A stretch of 64,000 nucleotides of DNA, taken from positions 62,001 to 126,000 of the forward strand of contig JAIEPF010000010.1 in assembly GCA_019749945.1 (NCBI GenBank), in the 5' to 3' direction. The DNA comes from Burkholderiales bacterium (GTDB taxonomy: Bacteria; Pseudomonadota; Gammaproteobacteria; Burkholderiales; SG8-41). The notes beneath the pieces are model-generated. The model ran no database searches. It saw only the letters and a list, made by a program, of their open reading frames with translations, and was not told the DNA's origin. Below are positions 28,701-37,808 of this stretch, piece after piece. Each line of letters starts with the position of its first letter. The first letter of the stretch is position 1. The position numbers were made by a program, and so were the translations under genes.

Positions 28701-28711
28701 GGAGCATGGTC

Positions 28712-29011
28712 ATGCTGCGTCTGTGGATAGTCTCTTCGGGGCTGCTGTTGAGCAGTGCGGTATGTGCGCAGACCGTACTGACCTGCGATCAGATTGTTGC
28801 CAGCGCACAGGCTGGCCTTGAAATGCGCGATCGCGGGGCGTCGCTGAACCAGGTGATGGCTGAAACCGAAAAAGGCGATTTGCGCGAGCGTTTCAAGCCG
28901 GATGAATTGGCGATGATCCGGCGTGCGGTGCGCCTGACCTTTACCAGCGAAATTTCGATTTATGAACTGGCTGAAACATGCGCCGCCAGCAAAGGCGGCA
29001 GCCGCCGCTGA
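28712..29011 (+). CDS. Small exported hypothetical protein
   Basis: A 99-aa protein with a signal peptide (MLRLWIVSSGLLLSSAVCAQ). ATG 28712 gives a proper 7-base spacing from GGAG at 28701; the ATG at 28706 is too close. The mature part has two cysteines (TCDQIV and AETCAASKG), a possible periplasmic disulfide, and a helical middle. No family recognised. It begins 11 bases after the acyl-CoA dehydrogenase stop and lies upstream of the methyltransferase-like array. Confidence 0.6.
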   Translation: MLRLWIVSSGLLLSSAVCAQTVLTCDQIVASAQAGLEMRDRGASLNQVMAETEKGDLRERFKPDELAMIRRAVRLTFTSEISIYELAETCAASKGGSRR

Positions 29012-29074: not shown

Positions 29075-29956
29075 ATGAAATTCGGACAGATGAACAGCAG
29101 TTGGCGGTCAGTGGCAGTAGTGGCGGGGATGATCTGGGTATGCATCGCAGGCGCGGCGCAGAAGCAGCCCAACGTGCCGCCGGAATATGAGCGCGAAGGC
29201 GGGCCCTATGTGCCGACGCCGAATGTGGTGGTGGACCAGATGCTGAAGCTGGCCAATGTCGGCGCCAATGATCACGTGATCGACCTCGGTTCCGGCGACG
29301 GCATCATCGTGCTGACCGCAGCCCACCAGCGCAAGTCCAGCGGTTATGGCGTCGATATCGACGAGGAGCTGGTGCGGCTCAGCAACCTGCGCGCCAAAAG
29401 TCTCGGTGTTTCAGGACGGGTGCTGTTCGAGGCCAGGGATATTTTCAAGACCAATGTCAGCAAGGCCACCGTGGTCACGCTGTACCTGCTGCCGGAGTTC
29501 ATGCGGCGGCTGCGGCCCAAGCTGTTCAACGAACTCAAGCCCGGCACGCGCATCGTGTCGCACGATTATCATTTCGACGAGTGGCAGCATGACGAAGACA
29601 TCAGTTTTGACGTGCCGGAGAAGGAATTCATTTCCGGCGTGCCGCACGCGACCCTCTACCTGTGGATCGTGCCGGCCAGGGTTGAGGGCAGCTGGCGCAT
29701 GCAGCTCGACGGCGGCGGCGAATACAACGTGATGCTGAAGCAGCGTTACCAGGTTCTTGAGGGCACGGTCGAGACCAGTGGCCGTCAGGCCGGGCTGCTC
29801 GAACCGAAGATGAAAGGGACTGAAATCAATTTCGTGCTGGTACAGGGCGCAAGCCGCGGCCAGTTCACCGGCCGGGTTGACGGCAATCGCATGGAAGGCA
29901 CCGCGAATTTCGGGGATGGCAAGGCCGTGCGCTGGAGCGCCAGCAAAGGTTCATAA
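29075..29956 (+). CDS. Exported FAM173-like SAM-methyltransferase-fold protein, copy 1
   Basis: A 293-aa protein with a signal-peptide-like N-terminus (hydrophobic about residues 12-27, ending IAGAAQ). The array signatures follow: YVPTPNVVVDQML, SAM motif I VIDLGSGDGI, acidic motif GYGVDID, TLYLLPEFMRRLRPKL, and PGTRIVSHDYHF. The C-terminal third has WIVPARVEGSW and a beta-type tail GQFTGRVDGNRMEG. The layout resembles FAM173/ATPSCKMT lysine methyltransferases. Motif I ends GDGI where the other five copies have GDGR. A GGAGGG ribosome-binding site precedes the start. Substrate and SAM source outside the cytoplasm are unknown. Confidence 0.7.
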   Translation: MKFGQMNSSWRSVAVVAGMIWVCIAGAAQKQPNVPPEYEREGGPYVPTPNVVVDQMLKLANVGANDHVIDLGSGDGIIVLTAAHQRKSSGYGVDIDEELVRLSNLRAKSLGVSGRVLFEARDIFKTNVSKATVVTLYLLPEFMRRLRPKLFNELKPGTRIVSHDYHFDEWQHDEDISFDVPEKEFISGVPHATLYLWIVPARVEGSWRMQLDGGGEYNVMLKQRYQVLEGTVETSGRQAGLLEPKMKGTEINFVLVQGASRGQFTGRVDGNRMEGTANFGDGKAVRWSASKGS

Positions 29957-30105
29957 CTGCCTAGCAGTTTGTTGAAAAACGTTATTGCCGGAAAACGGTC
30001 CTGCCTTGTTGGTTTTTCCACTATCGCTTAATCAACGACTTGAAGGCGTGTGCGCTCGGTCGCTGCGCTCCCAACGCGCTCGCCCATCACTTTTTCCACG
30101 CACTG

Positions 30106-31701
30106 CTAGTTCATCAGCAGTGCCGGCGGGGCGCTGTCTAGCACTCCCTGGCGGAACGCGGCCTGGCTGGCAGCCATGTCCAGCGCCGCGGCATTCCATG
30201 CGTCGTAGATGATTTTTCCCGATGCGGCCATGCTGCCGACGGCCTGCGGTTTCGCCAGCATGTCCCACAGCGTCGCGGCATGGCGTTCCGGCACGTCATT
30301 GATGGTCACGCGCTGCGGCGCCGGCAGCGGCGTTGGCGATGCAACCAGGAAACTGTTGATCTGCCGCGCGCCGGGCCAGTCGGGCCGGTACAGCGCGACA
30401 TGCGGCAGTTCACTCAGCAGCGTCGCCAGCAGATGGGAATAACCGCGCGTGTCGTCGAGATTGGCGAAAGTGTTGAAAATCGCCACACCGCCGGGTTTCA
30501 GGCAGCCCTTCAGGTCGCGGAAAAATTCACGGGTGATCAGGTAATCGGGCGTGCCGTCGCCGTGAAAAAGGTCGACCAGCACCACGTCGTGGCGCGGCGC
30601 GCATTCACCGACAAAAGTCCGTGCATCGGCCTGGTGCGTGGTGACGCGTTTCACATCAAATCCGAAATACCGCTGCGCCACCGCCACGGACGCCGGGTCG
30701 ATTTCGACGACGGCGACGCGGGTGCCGTCGCGCGCGAGGCGTGACGGCACGATGCCGGCGCCCAGGCCCAGCATCAGCGCCTCCTGCATCTGCGGACGGT
30801 AGGCGCGTGCCAGCGCCTCCAGCGCCCAGGTGTAAAAAGAGATCGAATGCTGGTTGGAGTCGACGCTGTTCTGGATCAGGCCGTCGTGGAAGTACATGCG
30901 CAGGAATTTTCCATCGGCATCGGCGCCGCTGCGCAGGATTTTCACGGTGCCGAACAGCGAACTGTGGCTGCCTTCGACCTGCCACTCGGCGCCGCTGAAG
31001 GCGACCGGGCCGAGGCGTCCGGTGTAACGGTCGCCCTGCCAGGCCAGCAAGGCGGCGCCGAGCACGGCGGCGATGCCGCAGGCGCTGACGGTGCCGCGGC
31101 CGGACATGGCGAGCCCTGATGCCGCCGCTGTCAGTGACAGCACCCCCAGCAGCAAGGCCACCAGCAGTGTGGCGGTGTAATTGCTGATGTACGGGATCAG
31201 GCCGAAGGCGGTGACGATGACGCCGGCGACCGAACCCAGCGTGCTGACAAAAAACACCAGGCCCGAGCCGGCGTCCCCTTTGCGTTTTTCCTGTTGTTGC
31301 AACAGCAGCGCCACCAGCAGCGGATTCATCGCCGAGGTCGCGACCAGCGGCAGGAACAGCAGGATCATGCAGGCGGCGAAGGCGCCGCCGCTCAGGCTCC
31401 AGCGCGCCAGCGGATGGAAGGCAAAGGGATAAATCGCGCAGGCGGCGATGATTGCCAGGCCGGCCAGCGCCGGCATGATCGCGAACAAGAGGCCGAGGCG
31501 GCGCGCCGGTGCGTTGCCGGCAAGCCGGCCGCCCCACCAGTAGCCGAGCGCCAGCGACACCAGTGTGATCGACAGGATGCCGGTCCAGATGTAGAGGCTG
31601 ACGCCGAAATAGGGCGTCATGATGCGCGAGGCCAGCAGTTCAAGCGCCAGGATCGCGCCGCCGGAAATGAAGATCAGGGTGAAAGGGATAACAGCGGGCA
31701 T
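30106..31701 (-). CDS. Membrane-anchored spermidine-synthase-like protein
   Basis: A 531-aa protein starting MPAVIPFTLIFISGGAILAL at 31701. The N-terminal half (about residues 1-235) holds about seven or eight transmembrane segments (SGGAILALELLASRIMTPYF, LVSLALGYWWGG). The C-terminal half is a SpeE-like Rossmann domain: LMLGLGAGIVPSRLARDG, VAVVEIDPASVAVA, DARTF, VVLVDLFHGDG. The polyamine-synthase glycine motif GGGDG is altered to GLGAG, so true spermidine synthesis is doubtful. It is convergent with array copy 1 and divergent from copy 2, embedded in the methyltransferase-like cluster. Confidence 0.8.
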   Translation of the reverse strand: MPAVIPFTLIFISGGAILALELLASRIMTPYFGVSLYIWTGILSITLVSLALGYWWGGRLAGNAPARRLGLLFAIMPALAGLAIIAACAIYPFAFHPLARWSLSGGAFAACMILLFLPLVATSAMNPLLVALLLQQQEKRKGDAGSGLVFFVSTLGSVAGVIVTAFGLIPYISNYTATLLVALLLGVLSLTAAASGLAMSGRGTVSACGIAAVLGAALLAWQGDRYTGRLGPVAFSGAEWQVEGSHSSLFGTVKILRSGADADGKFLRMYFHDGLIQNSVDSNQHSISFYTWALEALARAYRPQMQEALMLGLGAGIVPSRLARDGTRVAVVEIDPASVAVAQRYFGFDVKRVTTHQADARTFVGECAPRHDVVLVDLFHGDGTPDYLITREFFRDLKGCLKPGGVAIFNTFANLDDTRGYSHLLATLLSELPHVALYRPDWPGARQINSFLVASPTPLPAPQRVTINDVPERHAATLWDMLAKPQAVGSMAASGKIIYDAWNAAALDMAASQAAFRQGVLDSAPPALLMN

Positions 31702-31754
31702 GGCAATGGGTGGAAGGCAGGGCGAAAGGCGAAGGCTGTCGATAATCTGTCGGT

Positions 31755-31760
31755 TATAAT
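31755..31760 (+). promoter_or_regulatory. Candidate -10 box for the methyltransferase-like operon
   Basis: A perfect TATAAT lies 125 bases upstream of array copy 2, in the divergent gap after the spermidine-synthase-like start. No good -35 box is visible 16-18 bases upstream, so an activator would be needed if it is used. Confidence 0.3.
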
Positions 31761-31885
31761 GCGCCGCCAATCTACCACAGGCGCAGTCTCATTCAGGTGA
31801 CCGGGAATGCAATTGCGGGCAGCCTGTGGTGACGGTTCCAAATCCAATCGATGCACAGGTGTGGCGGCGTGTCATGGAGGCGATC

Positions 31886-32791
31886 ATGCAGCGTCTGTTG
31901 AGGGTATTTAATCGAGTACTGCCGGCACTGGCTTTTGCCGGAGTGCTGGCATCCGGTGCGCAGGCGGCGGGCGATCAGCCCAGCGTGCCCTATGTGCCGA
32001 CGCCGCAGGCGGTGGTTGACCGCATGCTGGAGATGGCCAAAGTCACGGCGCAGGATTACCTGATCGACCTCGGTTCCGGCGACGGCCGCATCGTCGTCAC
32101 CGCCGCGAAAAAATTCGGCGCACGCGGTTTCGGTGTCGATCTGAATCCGGTGCGCATCAGCGAAGCCAATGAAAACGCCCGCAGGAACGGCGTCACCGAC
32201 AAGGTGGCGTTTTACCAGCGCAACCTGTTTGACACCGATCTGTCGCAGGCGACGGTGATCACCATGTACCTGCTGCCGCGGGTCAACCTGGAATTGCGTC
32301 CCAAGCTGCTGGAACTGAAGCCGGGCACACGCCTGGTGTCCCATGATTTCGACATGGGTGACTGGAAAGCCGATGCGTCGGTGCGCATCAATGCGGCTGA
32401 CAAATTTTCCGGCGCCGGCGGCGACAGCGACGTGTATTTCTGGGTGGTGCCGGCGAAAGCGGGCGGCAGCTGGCGCTCGCAATTCCCGGTATCCGGCAAG
32501 CCGCAGACTTATGAATTCATGTTCGAGCAGAAATACCAGGTGATCAGCGGCTCGGTGCAGGTCAACGGCCGGGCGGTGAAAATACCCGATGCAAAACTGC
32601 GCGGTGCGGAACTGTCGTTTTCCTTCACCGCGGAAGTGAACGGCGCGCCGGTGAAGCACGAGTTCAGCGGGCGTGTCGATGGCGACCGCATCATAGGCCA
32701 GGCCGCGTTGTCGGGCAGCCGCCTGACGGCGCGGGTGGAATGGATCGCCGAGCGCGCCGCCCGCGTCGCCGGCACGGGAGCAATGAACTGA
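31886..32791 (+). CDS. Exported FAM173-like methyltransferase-fold protein, copy 2
   Basis: A 301-aa protein. ATG 31886 follows GGAGG at good spacing. Signal peptide to about residue 27 (VLASGAQAAGD). Motifs: YVPTPQAVVDRMLEMAKV, LIDLGSGDGRIVVTAAKKFG, GFGVDLNP, YLLPRVNLELRPKL, PGTRLVSHDFDMGDW, FWVVPAKAGGSW. The C-terminal beta domain contains FSGRVDGDRIIGQA. It keeps all the features of the class I SAM fold, and its VDLNP resembles the ELNP motif of eukaryotic FAM173. First of five consecutive plus-strand copies. Its stop overlaps the next start by one base (TGATG). Confidence 0.72.
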   Translation: MQRLLRVFNRVLPALAFAGVLASGAQAAGDQPSVPYVPTPQAVVDRMLEMAKVTAQDYLIDLGSGDGRIVVTAAKKFGARGFGVDLNPVRISEANENARRNGVTDKVAFYQRNLFDTDLSQATVITMYLLPRVNLELRPKLLELKPGTRLVSHDFDMGDWKADASVRINAADKFSGAGGDSDVYFWVVPAKAGGSWRSQFPVSGKPQTYEFMFEQKYQVISGSVQVNGRAVKIPDAKLRGAELSFSFTAEVNGAPVKHEFSGRVDGDRIIGQAALSGSRLTARVEWIAERAARVAGTGAMN

Positions 32792-33693
32792 TGCGGATTC
32801 GAATCACGGCTGGCGTCCTGCTGCTGGCGCTGGCGGCAACGGCAGGGGCGCAGGATTTCGGCGATACCCCTTATGTGCAGACGCCGCAGAACGTTGTCGA
32901 TGCCATGCTCGAAACGGCAAAGGTGACCGACAGGGACTATGTGATCGACCTCGGTTCGGGTGACGGGCGCATGGTCATCACCGCGGCAAAAAAACGCGGC
33001 GCGCGCGGTTTCGGCGTCGACCTCGACAAGCGTCTGGTGAAACTGGCCAATGACAATGCGCGCAAGGCCGGTGTTGCCGACCGTGCGAAATTCTATGCCC
33101 GCGACCTGTTCGAGACCGACCTCAGCCCGGCGTCGGTGATCACCATTTACCTGCTGCCTGAAGTGAACCTGATGGCGCGCAGCAGGCTGCTGGCGCTGGC
33201 ACCGGGCACGCGCATCGTGTCGCATGACTACGGCATCGGCGACTGGCTGCCGGACATTGAATATGAGATGGATGCACCGGGCAAACCGGTCGGCCGTTCG
33301 CAGAAAAGCAGGGTTCTCTACTGGGTGGTGCCCGACCACGTTGCCGGGCGCTGGACCTGGCCGCTCGATATCGGCGGCCGGCAGCAGTGGCTGGAGCTTT
33401 CGCTCAGCCAGAATTTCCAGAAGCTGGAGGCCGCGGCGCGGCTCGATGGTCGCAGGGTGCCCGTCGAGCGCGCCACGCTGACGGGGCGCCAGGTCGAGGT
33501 CACTTTGCTGCTGCCCGAACGCGGTCGAGTCGTGTTCAGCGGGCGGCGCATCAACCAGGCCCTGGAGGGCGAGATGCGCAGCGTTGACGGCGGCGGCAAA
33601 CCCGCGGCCTGGAGCGCGGTGCGCATCGAAATCCAGGATCCGGCGCATGTCATGGCACCGCCGCCGGTGATCCGGGAATTTATGCCGCAATAA
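32791..33693 (+). CDS. Exported FAM173-like methyltransferase-fold protein, copy 3
   Basis: A 300-aa protein starting MRIRITAGVLLLALAATAGA at 32791, coupled to copy 2 by TGATG. The signal peptide ends near TAGAQ. Motifs: YVQTPQNVVDAML (Gln where most copies have Pro), VIDLGSGDGRMVITAAKK, GFGVDLDKRLV, YLLPEVNLMARSRLL (the LRP element is lost) and PGTRIVSHDYGIGDW. The C-terminal domain ends in a Pro-rich tail (HVMAPPPVIREFMPQ) not seen in the others. The tail and motif drift suggest functional divergence between copies. Confidence 0.72.
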   Translation: MRIRITAGVLLLALAATAGAQDFGDTPYVQTPQNVVDAMLETAKVTDRDYVIDLGSGDGRMVITAAKKRGARGFGVDLDKRLVKLANDNARKAGVADRAKFYARDLFETDLSPASVITIYLLPEVNLMARSRLLALAPGTRIVSHDYGIGDWLPDIEYEMDAPGKPVGRSQKSRVLYWVVPDHVAGRWTWPLDIGGRQQWLELSLSQNFQKLEAAARLDGRRVPVERATLTGRQVEVTLLLPERGRVVFSGRRINQALEGEMRSVDGGGKPAAWSAVRIEIQDPAHVMAPPPVIREFMPQ

Positions 33694-33711
33694 ACATGCC
33701 GCACCGGGATT

Positions 33712-34590
33712 ATGCGTAAGATATTGTTTTTAAAGACTATTTTAATTACCGCCGGGTTTGCGCTGCTGCTGCCTTTACAGGCCCGGGCGCAGCTGGCGCA
33801 ACCGCCGCACTGGCAGTTTGATGTGCCGTTTGTGCCGACGCCCTATGTGGTGATCGAGGAAATGCTACGGCTGGCCAATGTGACCCCGCAGGATTTTGTG
33901 ATGGATCTCGGTTCCGGCGACGGCCGCGTGCTGATCACGGCTGCAAAAAAATTCGGTGCGCGCGGCATCGGGGTCGATCTCGACGGCGAACTGGTTGCCG
34001 AGAGCATTGAGGCGGCGGCTGCGGCGGGTGTCGGTGAGCGCGTCAAGTTCCTGCAGCAGGATCTGTTCAAGACCGATATCAGCCAGGCGACGGTGATCAC
34101 CATGTACCTGCTGCCCGGCGTGATGATGCGTCTGCGTCCGCTGCTGCTCAACCTGAAGCCGGGGACGCGGCTGGTGTCGCACGACTTCCGGCTCGATGAC
34201 TGGAATCCGGATGCGACGACACAGATCCGCAAAAATGCCTTCCTGTGGATCGTACCGGCGAAGGTGGCGGGAAAATGGGACATGAAATTCACATTGCCCG
34301 GCGCTGATTCGTCCGCGAGCGCGCACTCCATCACGCTGGAGCTGCGGCAGAAATTCCAGGAAGTCGACGGTTTCGCCCGTTTCGACGGTCGTCATGCCCA
34401 GGTCTGGGGGTCGCGCCTGTCCGGCGACCGTCTGAGCTTTGTCATCGTCGATGACCGCGATCGCGACCACGAAGCCAGCCTTTATTTTGAGGGCCGTGTC
34501 AGCGGTGATGTGATCGAAGGCAGCTTCCGCCGCGGCACCGGCAACACGCAGACCGTGCACGGCTGGCGTGCCGTGCGCGCCGCGCCATGA
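33712..34590 (+). CDS. Exported FAM173-like methyltransferase-fold protein, copy 4
   Basis: A 292-aa protein with a signal peptide (KTILITAGFALLLPLQARAQ). Motifs: FVPTPYVVIEEMLRLANV, VMDLGSGDGRVLITAAKK, GIGVDLDGELV, YLLPGVMMRLRPLL, PGTRLVSHDFRLDDW and WIVPAKVAGKW. The C-terminal domain has LYFEGRVSGDVIEGSF. The spacing GVMMRLRP, with MM before the LRP element, differs from the NLxLRP of copies 2, 5 and 6. Stop and next start overlap by four bases (ATGA). Confidence 0.72.
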   Translation: MRKILFLKTILITAGFALLLPLQARAQLAQPPHWQFDVPFVPTPYVVIEEMLRLANVTPQDFVMDLGSGDGRVLITAAKKFGARGIGVDLDGELVAESIEAAAAAGVGERVKFLQQDLFKTDISQATVITMYLLPGVMMRLRPLLLNLKPGTRLVSHDFRLDDWNPDATTQIRKNAFLWIVPAKVAGKWDMKFTLPGADSSASAHSITLELRQKFQEVDGFARFDGRHAQVWGSRLSGDRLSFVIVDDRDRDHEASLYFEGRVSGDVIEGSFRRGTGNTQTVHGWRAVRAAP

Positions 34591-35447
34591 TCGCGCTGCT
34601 GCGACGCTGCGGGGCCATCGCGCTGGCGGCGCTGTGCTGGCAGGCTGTCGCGGTGCGGGCGTCCGACGTGCCGTACGTGCCGACGCCGATGAACGTGGTG
34701 GACGCGATGCTCGTCCTCGGCGGCGTCGGCCCCGGGGATTACCTGATCGACCTCGGCTCAGGAGACGGCCGCATTTCGATCCGTGCCGCGACCCGCTTCG
34801 GCACCCCCGGCATGGGGGTGGATATTGACGACCGGCTGGTGCGCCTGGCGCAGGCCGAAGCGCAAAAGCAGGGCGTTGCCGGAAAAGTGGCGTTTGCCGC
34901 GCGCAACCTGTTTGACACCGACTTGAGCCGTGCCACGGTGATCACCGCGTACCTGCTGCATTCGGTGAACCTGCGTCTGCGGCCGATGCTGTTCGAACAG
35001 CTGAAACCCGGCACGCGCGTCGTGAGCCATGATTTCGACTTCGCCGACTGGCCGCCCGACCAGAAAATCACCATCGATGTGCCGGACAAGGTCTACGGAC
35101 CGCCGCGCAGCGATATCATGCTGTGGGTGATCCCCGCCAACTTCGCCGGCGTCTGGCAGTGGTCGCTGCCGGGCAGCCCGGTTTACGAGGCGCGCCTCGA
35201 GCAGAAATTCCAGATGCTGGTGGGCGCGGCGATGGCGCAGGGCCAGCCCCTGTCGCTGGCCGCGGCGCAGGTCAAGGGCGACACGGTGAGTTTCACGCTC
35301 AACGGCGCGGCGGGTGTCCAGCGCTACAGCGGGCGCATCGACGGCAATGTGATCAGCGGTGAAGTGGTGCCGCGCAGCGGCGAGCGTACATTGCCGTGGC
35401 GGGCGGAACGGATTAAAACGGGAACAATCAACATCGGCGGCATGTAG
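34587..35447 (+). CDS. Exported FAM173-like methyltransferase-fold protein, copy 5
   Basis: A 286-aa protein coupled to copy 4 by ATGA. The signal-type N-terminus is MIALLRRCGAIALAALCWQA; it has a Cys but no valid lipobox, so periplasmic rather than lipoprotein. Motifs: YVPTPMNVVDAML, LIDLGSGDGRISIRAATR, GMGVDIDDRLV, PGTRVVSHDFDFADW, WVIPANFAGVW and YSGRIDGNVISGEV. The usual YLLP is YLLH here (AYLLHSVNLRLRP). This is the most altered copy at that motif, the position corresponding to the substrate-side motif IV of class I methyltransferases. Confidence 0.72.
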   Translation: MIALLRRCGAIALAALCWQAVAVRASDVPYVPTPMNVVDAMLVLGGVGPGDYLIDLGSGDGRISIRAATRFGTPGMGVDIDDRLVRLAQAEAQKQGVAGKVAFAARNLFDTDLSRATVITAYLLHSVNLRLRPMLFEQLKPGTRVVSHDFDFADWPPDQKITIDVPDKVYGPPRSDIMLWVIPANFAGVWQWSLPGSPVYEARLEQKFQMLVGAAMAQGQPLSLAAAQVKGDTVSFTLNGAAGVQRYSGRIDGNVISGEVVPRSGERTLPWRAERIKTGTINIGGM

Positions 35448-35490
35448 CCTGGCGACATGACGCGGTCGGCAGTTCAATCAAGGAGCGGTG

Positions 35491-36408
35491 ATGAAAATGG
35501 CAAGTCTGAAAATCATGAAAGTGCTGGGCAGCGCGGCGCTGGTGGCGGGTGCACTGGCGTTGCCGGCGGCAGCGCAGGAAGGCCGCGGCGACGTGGTCTA
35601 TGTGCCGACGCCGCAGATTGTCGTCGATACCATGCTGCAAATGGCTAAAATCGGCCCCAAGGATTTCCTCATCGACCTGGGTTCCGGTGACGGCCGTTTT
35701 GTCATCACTGCGGCCTCCAAATACGGGGCCAGTGCTTTCGGCGTCGATCTCGATACCTACCTGCTGAAACTCGCCAACCAGAATGCGCAGAAGGCCGGCG
35801 TCACCGACAAGGTGCGTTTCATCGAGGAAAACCTGTTCACCACCGACCTGTCGCGGGCGACCGTGATCAGCACCTATCTGCTGCCGGAGATGAATTTGAG
35901 GCTGCGGCCCAAGTTCATGGCTCTGAAGCCGGGCACGCGCATCGTGACCCATGACTATCACCTCGGCGACTGGGAACCGGACGAGCAGCGCGAACTGATC
36001 GTGCCCGAGAAAAAAGTCGGCAACCCCGGCATCAGTTACCTGTTCTCCTATGTGGTGCCGGCGCGGGTTCCCGGCAAATGGCAGTCGCTGGTCAACATCG
36101 GCGGCCGTGACACGCCGCTGGAGTTCAACCTGCAGCAGGAATTCCAGGAAGTCGAGGGCAAGGTCGAAATCCGCGATCGCATCGTTGACCTTCGCGGCCG
36201 CATCATGGGTGAGAGCATACGCATGGTGGCAGCCGCCCGCGATGGCCTGCCGCGCCACGAGTTCAGCGGGCAGATCGGCGACGGCACCATCAAGGGCACC
36301 CTGGTCATCGGGGAAGGCACCGGGCGGCAGCAGCTGCCGTGGAGCGCGAGGCAGATTCAGCGCGGCGAACTGAAACGCGCCGCGGACGAACTGCCGGAAG
36401 TGAAATAG
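35491..36408 (+). CDS. Exported FAM173-like methyltransferase-fold protein, copy 6
   Basis: A 305-aa protein. ATG 35491 lies 5 bases after AAGGAG; a GTG at 35488 is less likely. The signal peptide ends ALPAAAQ. Motifs: YVPTPQIVVDTMLQMAKI, LIDLGSGDGRFVITAASK, AFGVDLDTYLL, YLLPEMNLRLRPKF, PGTRIVTHDYHLGDW and YVVPARVPGKW. The C-terminal domain has FSGQIGDGTIKGTL. Last of the array; 53 bases later the APC permease gene begins on the same strand, probably in the same transcript. Confidence 0.72.
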   Translation: MKMASLKIMKVLGSAALVAGALALPAAAQEGRGDVVYVPTPQIVVDTMLQMAKIGPKDFLIDLGSGDGRFVITAASKYGASAFGVDLDTYLLKLANQNAQKAGVTDKVRFIEENLFTTDLSRATVISTYLLPEMNLRLRPKFMALKPGTRIVTHDYHLGDWEPDEQRELIVPEKKVGNPGISYLFSYVVPARVPGKWQSLVNIGGRDTPLEFNLQQEFQEVEGKVEIRDRIVDLRGRIMGESIRMVAAARDGLPRHEFSGQIGDGTIKGTLVIGEGTGRQQLPWSARQIQRGELKRAADELPEVK

Positions 36409-36461: not shown

Positions 36462-37808
36462 ATGAGCAGCCCGAACAGCGCAGCAGCGCCGCGCCAGACC
36501 CTGTCCGTCACCGATGCCTGCGCGATGATTGTCGGCCTGATCGTCGGCGCCGGCATTTTCGGCACGCCGTCCATCGTCGCCGGCGCCGTCGGCGGCGAGG
36601 CCACGCTGTACGCGGTGTGGATCGCCGGCGGCATTTTTTCGATCATCGGCGCGCTGTGTTATGCCGAGCTGGCCACGGCCTTTCCCTCGGCGGGCGGTGA
36701 ATATCACTTCATCCAGCGCGCCTTCGGCCGTTCGCCGGCCTTTCTCTACGGCTGGGCGCGGATGACGGTGATTGTGGCCGGCTCGATCGCGGTGTTTGCC
36801 TACCTGTTCGGCGATTACATGTCGCGGGTGGTCAATCTCGGTCCCCATTCATCGCCGATCTGGGCGGCCCTCGTGGTGGTGGTGCTGACCTATGTGAATT
36901 ACCGCGGCATCCGCGAGGGCAAGACCACGCAGAACATCTTTACCGTGCTCGAAGTCGGCGGCCTGGTGCTGATCGTTGTCGCCGGACTTTTTTTCGCGGC
37001 GCCGCCGCAGGCCGCGGTGCCGGCGGCCGCAGGCGCCGGCCAGCCTTGGTACATGGGGGCGGGCATCGGCTCGGCAATGATTTTTGTTTTGTTCACCTTC
37101 GGCGGCTGGAATGATGCCGCGTATATTTCCGCCGAAGTGCGCGACCGCGACCGCAACATGGCGCGTGCGCTGCTGCTGGCGATCAGCGTGGTGACATTGC
37201 TCTACCTGCTGGTCAACCTGGCGTACCTGAAAGGCCTCGGTTACGACGCAATGGCGCGTTCGGACGCGGTCGCAGCCGATCTGCTGAAGGCGGTGTGGGG
37301 AGGAGCCGGGGAAAAACTGATCGCGATCATGATTGCCATCGCCGCGCTGACTTCGGTCAATGGTTCGATGATCGTCGGTGCACGATCCAATTATGCGCTC
37401 GGCCGCGACTGGCCGATGCTGGCTTACCTCGGGCGCTGGGACGAGGCCAGCGGTTCGCCGAAAAACGCGATGCTGGTGCAGGGCGTGATTGCGCTGGCCC
37501 TGGTGGGTTTCGGTGCGATCCAGAATTCCGGATTCAAGGGGCTGGTCGAATATTCGCTGCCGGTGTTCTGGGGCTTTTTCCTGCTGACCGGCATCGCGCT
37601 GTTTGTGCTGCGCCTGAAGGAGCCCGCAGCGCCGCGCCCGTTCAAGGTGCCGCTCTATCCGCTGCTGCCCGCCGTGTTCGTGCTGATGTGTGCTTATCTG
37701 CTGTATTCCAGCCTGACCTATCACGGCAGTCATGCGCTGGTCGGGCTGGGCGTGCTGGCGGTTGGTGCGGTGGTGCTGCTGGCTGCCCGGGCCCACAAAA
37801 ATAATTAA
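36462..37808 (+). CDS. APC-family amino acid permease
   Basis: A 448-aa transporter, start ATG 36462 behind GAGGAGA. About 12 hydrophobic segments. TM1 carries the unwound substrate-site motif IVGLIVGAGIFGTPS, and GGEATLYAVWIAGG and CYAELATAFPSAGGEYHF follow as typical APC elements. Substrate class is amino acids or amines; the exact one is unknown. It closes the methyltransferase-like operon. That invites the idea that it moves an amino acid or amine connected with their activity, but this is inference. A long hairpin follows at 37838-37863. Confidence 0.85.
   Translation: MSSPNSAAAPRQTLSVTDACAMIVGLIVGAGIFGTPSIVAGAVGGEATLYAVWIAGGIFSIIGALCYAELATAFPSAGGEYHFIQRAFGRSPAFLYGWARMTVIVAGSIAVFAYLFGDYMSRVVNLGPHSSPIWAALVVVVLTYVNYRGIREGKTTQNIFTVLEVGGLVLIVVAGLFFAAPPQAAVPAAAGAGQPWYMGAGIGSAMIFVLFTFGGWNDAAYISAEVRDRDRNMARALLLAISVVTLLYLLVNLAYLKGLGYDAMARSDAVAADLLKAVWGGAGEKLIAIMIAIAALTSVNGSMIVGARSNYALGRDWPMLAYLGRWDEASGSPKNAMLVQGVIALALVGFGAIQNSGFKGLVEYSLPVFWGFFLLTGIALFVLRLKEPAAPRPFKVPLYPLLPAVFVLMCAYLLYSSLTYHGSHALVGLGVLAVGAVVLLAARAHKNN

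Follow-up and report, generated by a model that had tools for sequence, protein, structure and literature searches.

The closest known enzymes to the branch considered here are the archaeal protein-lysine methyltransferases (KMTs) and their relatives. The aKMT/aKMT4 enzyme of Sulfolobus islandicus (PDB 5fa8, 5fad and 5jwj; NCBIfam model NF041081) is a cytoplasmic protein of about 160 amino acids (aa), possesses neither a signal peptide nor a beta domain, and acts in vitro as a methyltransferase on lysines of many different proteins (PMC4639711). FAM173A and FAM173B (ANT-KMT and ATPSc-KMT) are mitochondrial lysine methyltransferases that form no exported bacterial array and have been placed with the archaeal KMTs in an "archaeal KMT-like" group (PMC10238732). 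A further relative, the "RNA methyltransferase" of Salinibacter ruber (5bxy), was crystallised in complex with S-adenosylhomocysteine (SAH) as a chain of 158 aa without a beta domain, its RNA name being an annotation only. Here we analysed a stretch of 64,000 nucleotides (nt) from a Burkholderiales bacterium (contig JAIEPF010000010.1, positions 62,001 to 126,000; hereafter the window), which encodes six proteins of this fold. Whereas the aKMT/FAM173 group is cytoplasmic or resides in the mitochondrial matrix, the six copies occur in an array, carry signal peptides, with twin-arginine translocation (Tat) and lipoprotein variants in relatives, and lack cysteine (Cys). The enzyme fold is known, but the literature that we searched contained no paper on such methyltransferases in exported or periplasmic form, and the exported, Cys-free branch with its beta domain and transporter partner is undescribed there. 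We know of no bacterium for which a periplasmic methyltransferase dependent on S-adenosylmethionine (SAM) or a pool of SAM in the periplasm has been described. Read most economically, the locus would carry out SAM-dependent modification in the periplasm, with envelope proteins as the probable substrates.

An earlier note on this DNA, made from its letters alone, had reported six tandem paralogues with a FAM173-like methyltransferase fold. All six open reading frames (ORFs) proved to be homologous, with profile E-values of 1e-123 to 1e-139 that exclude chance. NF041081, the archaeal protein-lysine methyltransferase model, was the top NCBIfam match for each copy (E 4e-28 to 7e-38), and a profile search of the PDB placed 5bxy (E 9e-60) and the aKMT structures 5fa8/5jwj (E 3e-50 or better) far above all other entries. 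The AlphaFold2 model of the mature second copy, P0002, computed from 88 sequences of the window and of relatives' loci (pLDDT 94.2, pTM 0.89), consisted of a seven-beta-strand methyltransferase domain and a C-terminal domain built purely of beta strands (residues 168-264). In a Foldseek search with this model, the best matches were again SAH-bound 5bxy (catalytic domain 53% identical, TM-score 0.91) and the SAM- or SAH-bound aKMT structures 5fa8/5fad (47% identity over the domain, TM-score 0.90-0.91 on the target), with 5bxy, 5fad, 5fa8 and 5jwj ahead of the next match by approximately seven orders of magnitude in E-value. The likeness to aKMT comprises the seven-beta-strand fold, the pre-domain VPYVPTP, motif I, the YLL/FLL motif and the PGTRVVSH segment. 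A chance motif match was ruled out by the NCBIfam, PDB profile and Foldseek results. Given that FAM173A/B are published homologues of the archaeal KMTs (PMC10238732, PMC5828452), the proposed FAM173 kinship stands, as kinship within a group rather than by direct comparison.

The six copies also passed the Pfam DOT1 model (25-34 bits vs. a cut-off of 23), but with only partial coverage of the profile and more weakly than they matched aKMT, and we treated this match as superfamily kinship and not as membership. The DOT1/KMT4 histone lysine methyltransferases, which gave the weaker profile and fold matches (PDB 8fjm), differ from the window copies in being only 17-18% identical, in being nuclear and in their other substrate-binding regions. 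The C-terminal beta domain that had been noticed earlier is an extension present in all six copies, and is all-beta in the P0002 model. Searched against Pfam, it returned nothing better than E 0.1 (limit 10).

The common motifs that had been read from the sequence were recovered, with the TP of YVPTP, DLGSGDG, GVD, YLL and PGTR-x-V-x-HD invariant in all six copies, as were the P and the W where the two domains meet. Amongst 236 exported homologues, the SAM motif DLGSGDG was intact in 226, the other ten differing by one residue; each of its residues was kept in 98.7-100% of the proteins, the first Asp and two Gly being invariant, and the post-I position was always acidic (D or E), as it is in the six copies themselves. 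In FAM173B, a motif-I Asp is needed for activity, as seen with the D94A substitution (PMC5828452). A few strongly diverged copies in expanded arrays, aligned over the same motif regions, showed changed pre-domain motifs. One way to read the fold is as a structural or protein-binding module that holds no cofactor, for which the altered motifs of some expanded-array paralogues may be cited, as may the fact that we know of no periplasmic SAM. However, motif I and the post-I acid hardly vary over divergent exported proteins that are often only ~40% identical; a fold that binds no ligand would have difficulty accounting for this conservation, and we consider this explanation quite improbable. The earlier note had further proposed structure prediction as a check for a missing SAM pocket; AlphaFold2 and Foldseek instead returned a SAM fold for P0002.

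Export of the six proteins across the inner membrane is a prediction from sequence that is strongly supported. Using a simple, home-made signal-peptide filter, 222 of 238 leaders passed, as compared with none of the 21 N-termini of cytosolic neighbours and five of 246 internal cytosolic windows. The pass rate for shuffled leaders was 23%, because the leader region is hydrophobic in composition, and the leaders that failed were mostly evident leaders by inspection or were cut by contig ends. The claim that all six have Sec-type signal peptides held on inspection; it does not extend to their relatives, which also use Tat-type leaders (SRRSFI, TRRQFL, TRRDFLALSG) and lipobox leaders. Although they represent three different routes, all these leaders take the protein to one and the same membrane side. 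The leaders of L126 and L127 (LVSGC and LLTGC) are probably of the lipoprotein type, suggesting membrane-anchored periplasmic versions of the protein. Cys was absent from 218 of 229 mature copies, with a frequency per residue of 0.00024 vs. 0.005-0.014 in three cytosolic neighbours. In a subgroup of mostly solitary copies (L085, L075, L076, L095 and L099), the mature protein is free of Cys except for a CxxxC pair, which suggests a disulfide.

If the leaders had been miscalled, the proteins would act in the cytoplasm as ordinary methyltransferases, and leaderless relatives do occur in the same phylum (L097 and L101, of which only one has the beta domain). Their existence indicates that export belongs to this branch and not to the whole fold family, and they constitute natural cytoplasmic controls. 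Against a cytoplasmic location stand the near-universal presence of leaders of three kinds, the absence of Cys, and the fact that, in most cases, a translation start past the leader would cut into the conserved YVPTP region. None of the predictions made here assigned the N-termini to the cytoplasm, and we regard this explanation as very improbable indeed.

The six copies and their neighbours are arranged in the window as follows, with the ratio of nonsynonymous to synonymous substitution rates (dN/dS) given against relatives.

28706..29011, plus strand: P0008, small predicted exported protein of 101 aa, upstream of copy 1 and conserved in close relatives
29075..29956, plus strand: P0001, exported methyltransferase-fold copy 1, in orthologous clade b1 of the tree; dN/dS 0.22-0.31
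30106..31701, minus strand: P0007, fused seven-transmembrane/spermidine-synthase-like protein (NF037959, 1.6e-49); ORF open to 31788
31886..32791, plus strand: P0002, exported methyltransferase-fold copy 2, structure modelled, alternative start at 31874; dN/dS 0.14-0.17
32791..33693, plus strand: P0003, exported methyltransferase-fold copy 3, its start overlapping the stop of copy 2; dN/dS 0.16-0.22
33712..34590, plus strand: P0004, exported methyltransferase-fold copy 4; dN/dS 0.14-0.22
34587..35447, plus strand: P0005, exported methyltransferase-fold copy 5, its start overlapping the stop of copy 4; dN/dS 0.15-0.31
35491..36408, plus strand: P0006, exported methyltransferase-fold copy 6; dN/dS 0.10-0.16
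36462..37808, plus strand: P0009, amino-acid permease of the APC superfamily, LAT/SLC7-like (Pfam AA_permease_2, 9e-57)

Copies 2 to 6 form a tight run of five genes, with overlaps of 1 and 4 bases and gaps of 18 and 43, and the permease gene begins 53 bp past copy 6 on the same strand. Copy 1 is separated from this run by the P0007 gene, which is convergent to copy 1 and divergent to copy 2, so that the six homologues do not make up the single tandem run that had been described. The earlier note was also silent on the P0007 gene, on the permease and on how old and how conserved the locus is; overall, its observation was confirmed in part and its interpretation partly supported.

The array is ancient. 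In a tree of 94 proteins, the array positions b1, a2, a3, a4/e2 and a5/e1 formed largely orthologous groups across genera. Recent duplication was ruled out by these cross-genus clades and by the low identity of paralogues within one genome, which is only ~40% (39-42% for the other copies against copy 1). Similarly, the dN/dS values of 0.10-0.31 for all six copies denote purifying selection and rule out pseudogenes or decay. A survey of genomes showed that the array is conserved, the enzyme being encoded in 73 of 74 genomes of the window's own family, mostly in 5-17 copies, in 60 of 300 genomes of the order Burkholderiales, and in six of 274 in the class sample. By profile search, the window's own genome encodes three additional homologues outside the locus. 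In one family (f184; L109, L110, L111 and L112), the array reaches a dozen or so copies, several of which have Tat-like leaders and altered SAM motifs (DLGSFDG).

P0009 passed the AA_permease_2 model with 193 bits (cut-off 27, E 9e-57), its nearest solved structures being 6f2g (E 5e-53) and the SLC7 light chains (E 1e-35 to 1e-48). The permease was found in 48 of the 300 Burkholderiales genomes, 46 of which also encode the exported enzyme (Fisher test 4e-39, uncorrected for shared ancestry). By comparison of positions, it lies within ~250 bp of an enzyme copy in 40 genomes from 11 families, on either side of that copy and also in single-copy genomes without P0007; the remaining genomes comprise four in which the genes lie apart, two with genes at contig ends and two with the permease only. 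Recurrence beside the enzyme in 11 families rules out mere neighbourhood as the sole explanation for the permease. Every inspected enzyme copy that adjoins a permease has an export signal. Short exported forms without the C-terminal beta domain also occur (L115, L116, L117, L121, L122, L126 and, in the window's own genome, L092); six of these adjoin the permease, and the beta domain is therefore not required for the permease linkage.

From this gene linkage, P0009 is possibly a transporter of SAM or SAH. Two precedents exist for such transport: in Candida, SAM is carried by the APC-family permease Gap4 (PMC5177730), and in mitochondria an unrelated carrier exchanges SAM for SAH (PMC9239748). 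The linkage also bears on a different reading, in which the exported domain would only capture SAM, SAH, methylthioadenosine or a related nucleoside for scavenging or sensing, and pass it to the permease for uptake with no methyl transfer. The conserved cofactor pocket and the co-inherited permease would suit such a binding protein, as would the lack, to our knowledge, of any periplasmic source of SAM. However, the motifs outside the pocket that are common with active aKMT are also kept (YVPTP, YLLP/FLLT, PGTR-x-V-S-H and W), simple scavenging would not call for several divergent paralogues, and we know of no APC permease that works with a binding protein. On balance, binding without catalysis appears unlikely. 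Returning to the putative transport of the cofactor by P0009, many LAT/SLC7-type transporters are exchangers.

P0007 passed the NF037959 model for fused MFS/spermidine synthases (169 bits vs. a cut-off of 40, E 1.6e-49), and its soluble domain matched spermidine synthases such as 1uir and 3gjy, with ~22% identity to solved enzymes and conservation of a DGxxQ-like segment and acidic residues. In the NCBIfam scan, the curated models for SpeE enzymes all stayed below their cut-offs on P0007. Hydropathy over 34 homologues and an AlphaFold2 model both gave seven transmembrane segments. Lys and Arg residues numbered ~2.7-3.1 per loop in loops 2-3, 4-5 and 6-7, and 0-1 in loops 1-2, 3-4 and 5-6, a distribution that puts the N-terminus on the cytoplasmic side of the membrane and the spermidine-synthase-like domain on the far side. 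The soluble domain has exactly two Cys, invariant in 31 of 31 sequences, as expected of a disulfide, and is predicted to be periplasmic. P0007 differs from soluble SpeE and other NF037959 proteins in its predicted seven transmembrane segments, periplasmic catalytic-like domain and invariant Cys pair, although the same topology may hold for NF037959 proteins more widely.

Orthologues of P0007 were present in 21 of the 300 Burkholderiales genomes, all of them within the 60 that bear the enzyme (Fisher test 8e-17, again with shared ancestry uncorrected), and they adjoin array copies wherever the positions of both are listed; a distant match in one further genome (G553) was left out of this count. 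The co-occurrence in 21 of 21 genomes rules out P0007 as a chance insertion. Decarboxylated SAM is the substrate of spermidine synthases. The enzymes might then use another adenosyl cofactor, e.g., decarboxylated SAM, in common with the P0007 domain, and transfer a group other than methyl. The predicted periplasmic location of that domain and its strict co-inheritance with full arrays would fit, but the nearest solved relatives of the six copies, at 47-53% identity, bind SAM or SAH, and the P0007 partner is absent from most enzyme-bearing genomes. We judge a shared cofactor of this type to be rather improbable.

We give even chances to an extracytoplasmic methylation system, in which exported SAM-dependent enzymes act with the permease as the best candidate for a cofactor route. 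The six class I (seven-beta-strand) methyltransferases of the aKMT/FAM173 branch would cross the inner membrane via their N-terminal signal peptides and fold in the periplasm, where they would bind SAM or a close analogue in the fully conserved pocket and methylate exported substrates, protein lysine side chains being the likeliest target by kinship. The catalytic surface and the C-terminal beta domain may give each paralogue a substrate of its own. The permease would export SAM or exchange SAM for SAH, and P0007 would add a second periplasmic domain of the nucleoside-cofactor type, joining only expanded arrays. SAM is made in the cytoplasm. Alternatively, Tat-type paralogues could leave the cytoplasm folded and with SAM already bound, enough for one turnover, which the Sec-type copies of the window could not do.

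Several findings weigh against such a methylation system. All six copies fall below the curated cut-off of NF041081 (98-130 bits vs. 200), a few expanded-array paralogues have altered motifs (DLGSFDG, DLGSGNG and PAGSSP), and we know of no periplasmic SAM pool that would supply the enzymes. No strong permease match was found in 14 enzyme-bearing genomes, one of which has a diverged adjoining permease and 13 none; with at least 13 of the 60 enzyme-bearing Burkholderiales genomes having no recognisable adjoining permease, the permease is not obligatory. Moreover, the P0007 partner is confined to three families in the sample, and the f184 arrays enclose a transporter of another kind as well, a protein of 690 aa that looks symporter-like on inspection of its sequence. 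The broader proposal, i.e., an ancient and widespread periplasmic SAM methylation with a dedicated SAM/SAH transporter of the APC family, plus a periplasmic spermidine-synthase-like membrane enzyme in expanded arrays, is one that we put forward tentatively and hold to be somewhat doubtful. There is a substantial chance that this branch marks a new compartment for SAM chemistry. If true, the view of SAM chemistry as confined to the cytoplasm would be overturned, envelope proteins would be open to a class of post-translational modification, and free-living bacteria would have a route of SAM transport. The gene linkage names P0002 or P0006 and P0009 as candidates for biochemistry.

Two minor observations concern the remainder of the locus. 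A scan for promoters and terminators yielded counts no higher than chance. The small protein P0008, whose membership of the system is uncertain, had no Pfam or NCBIfam match and contains two Cys.

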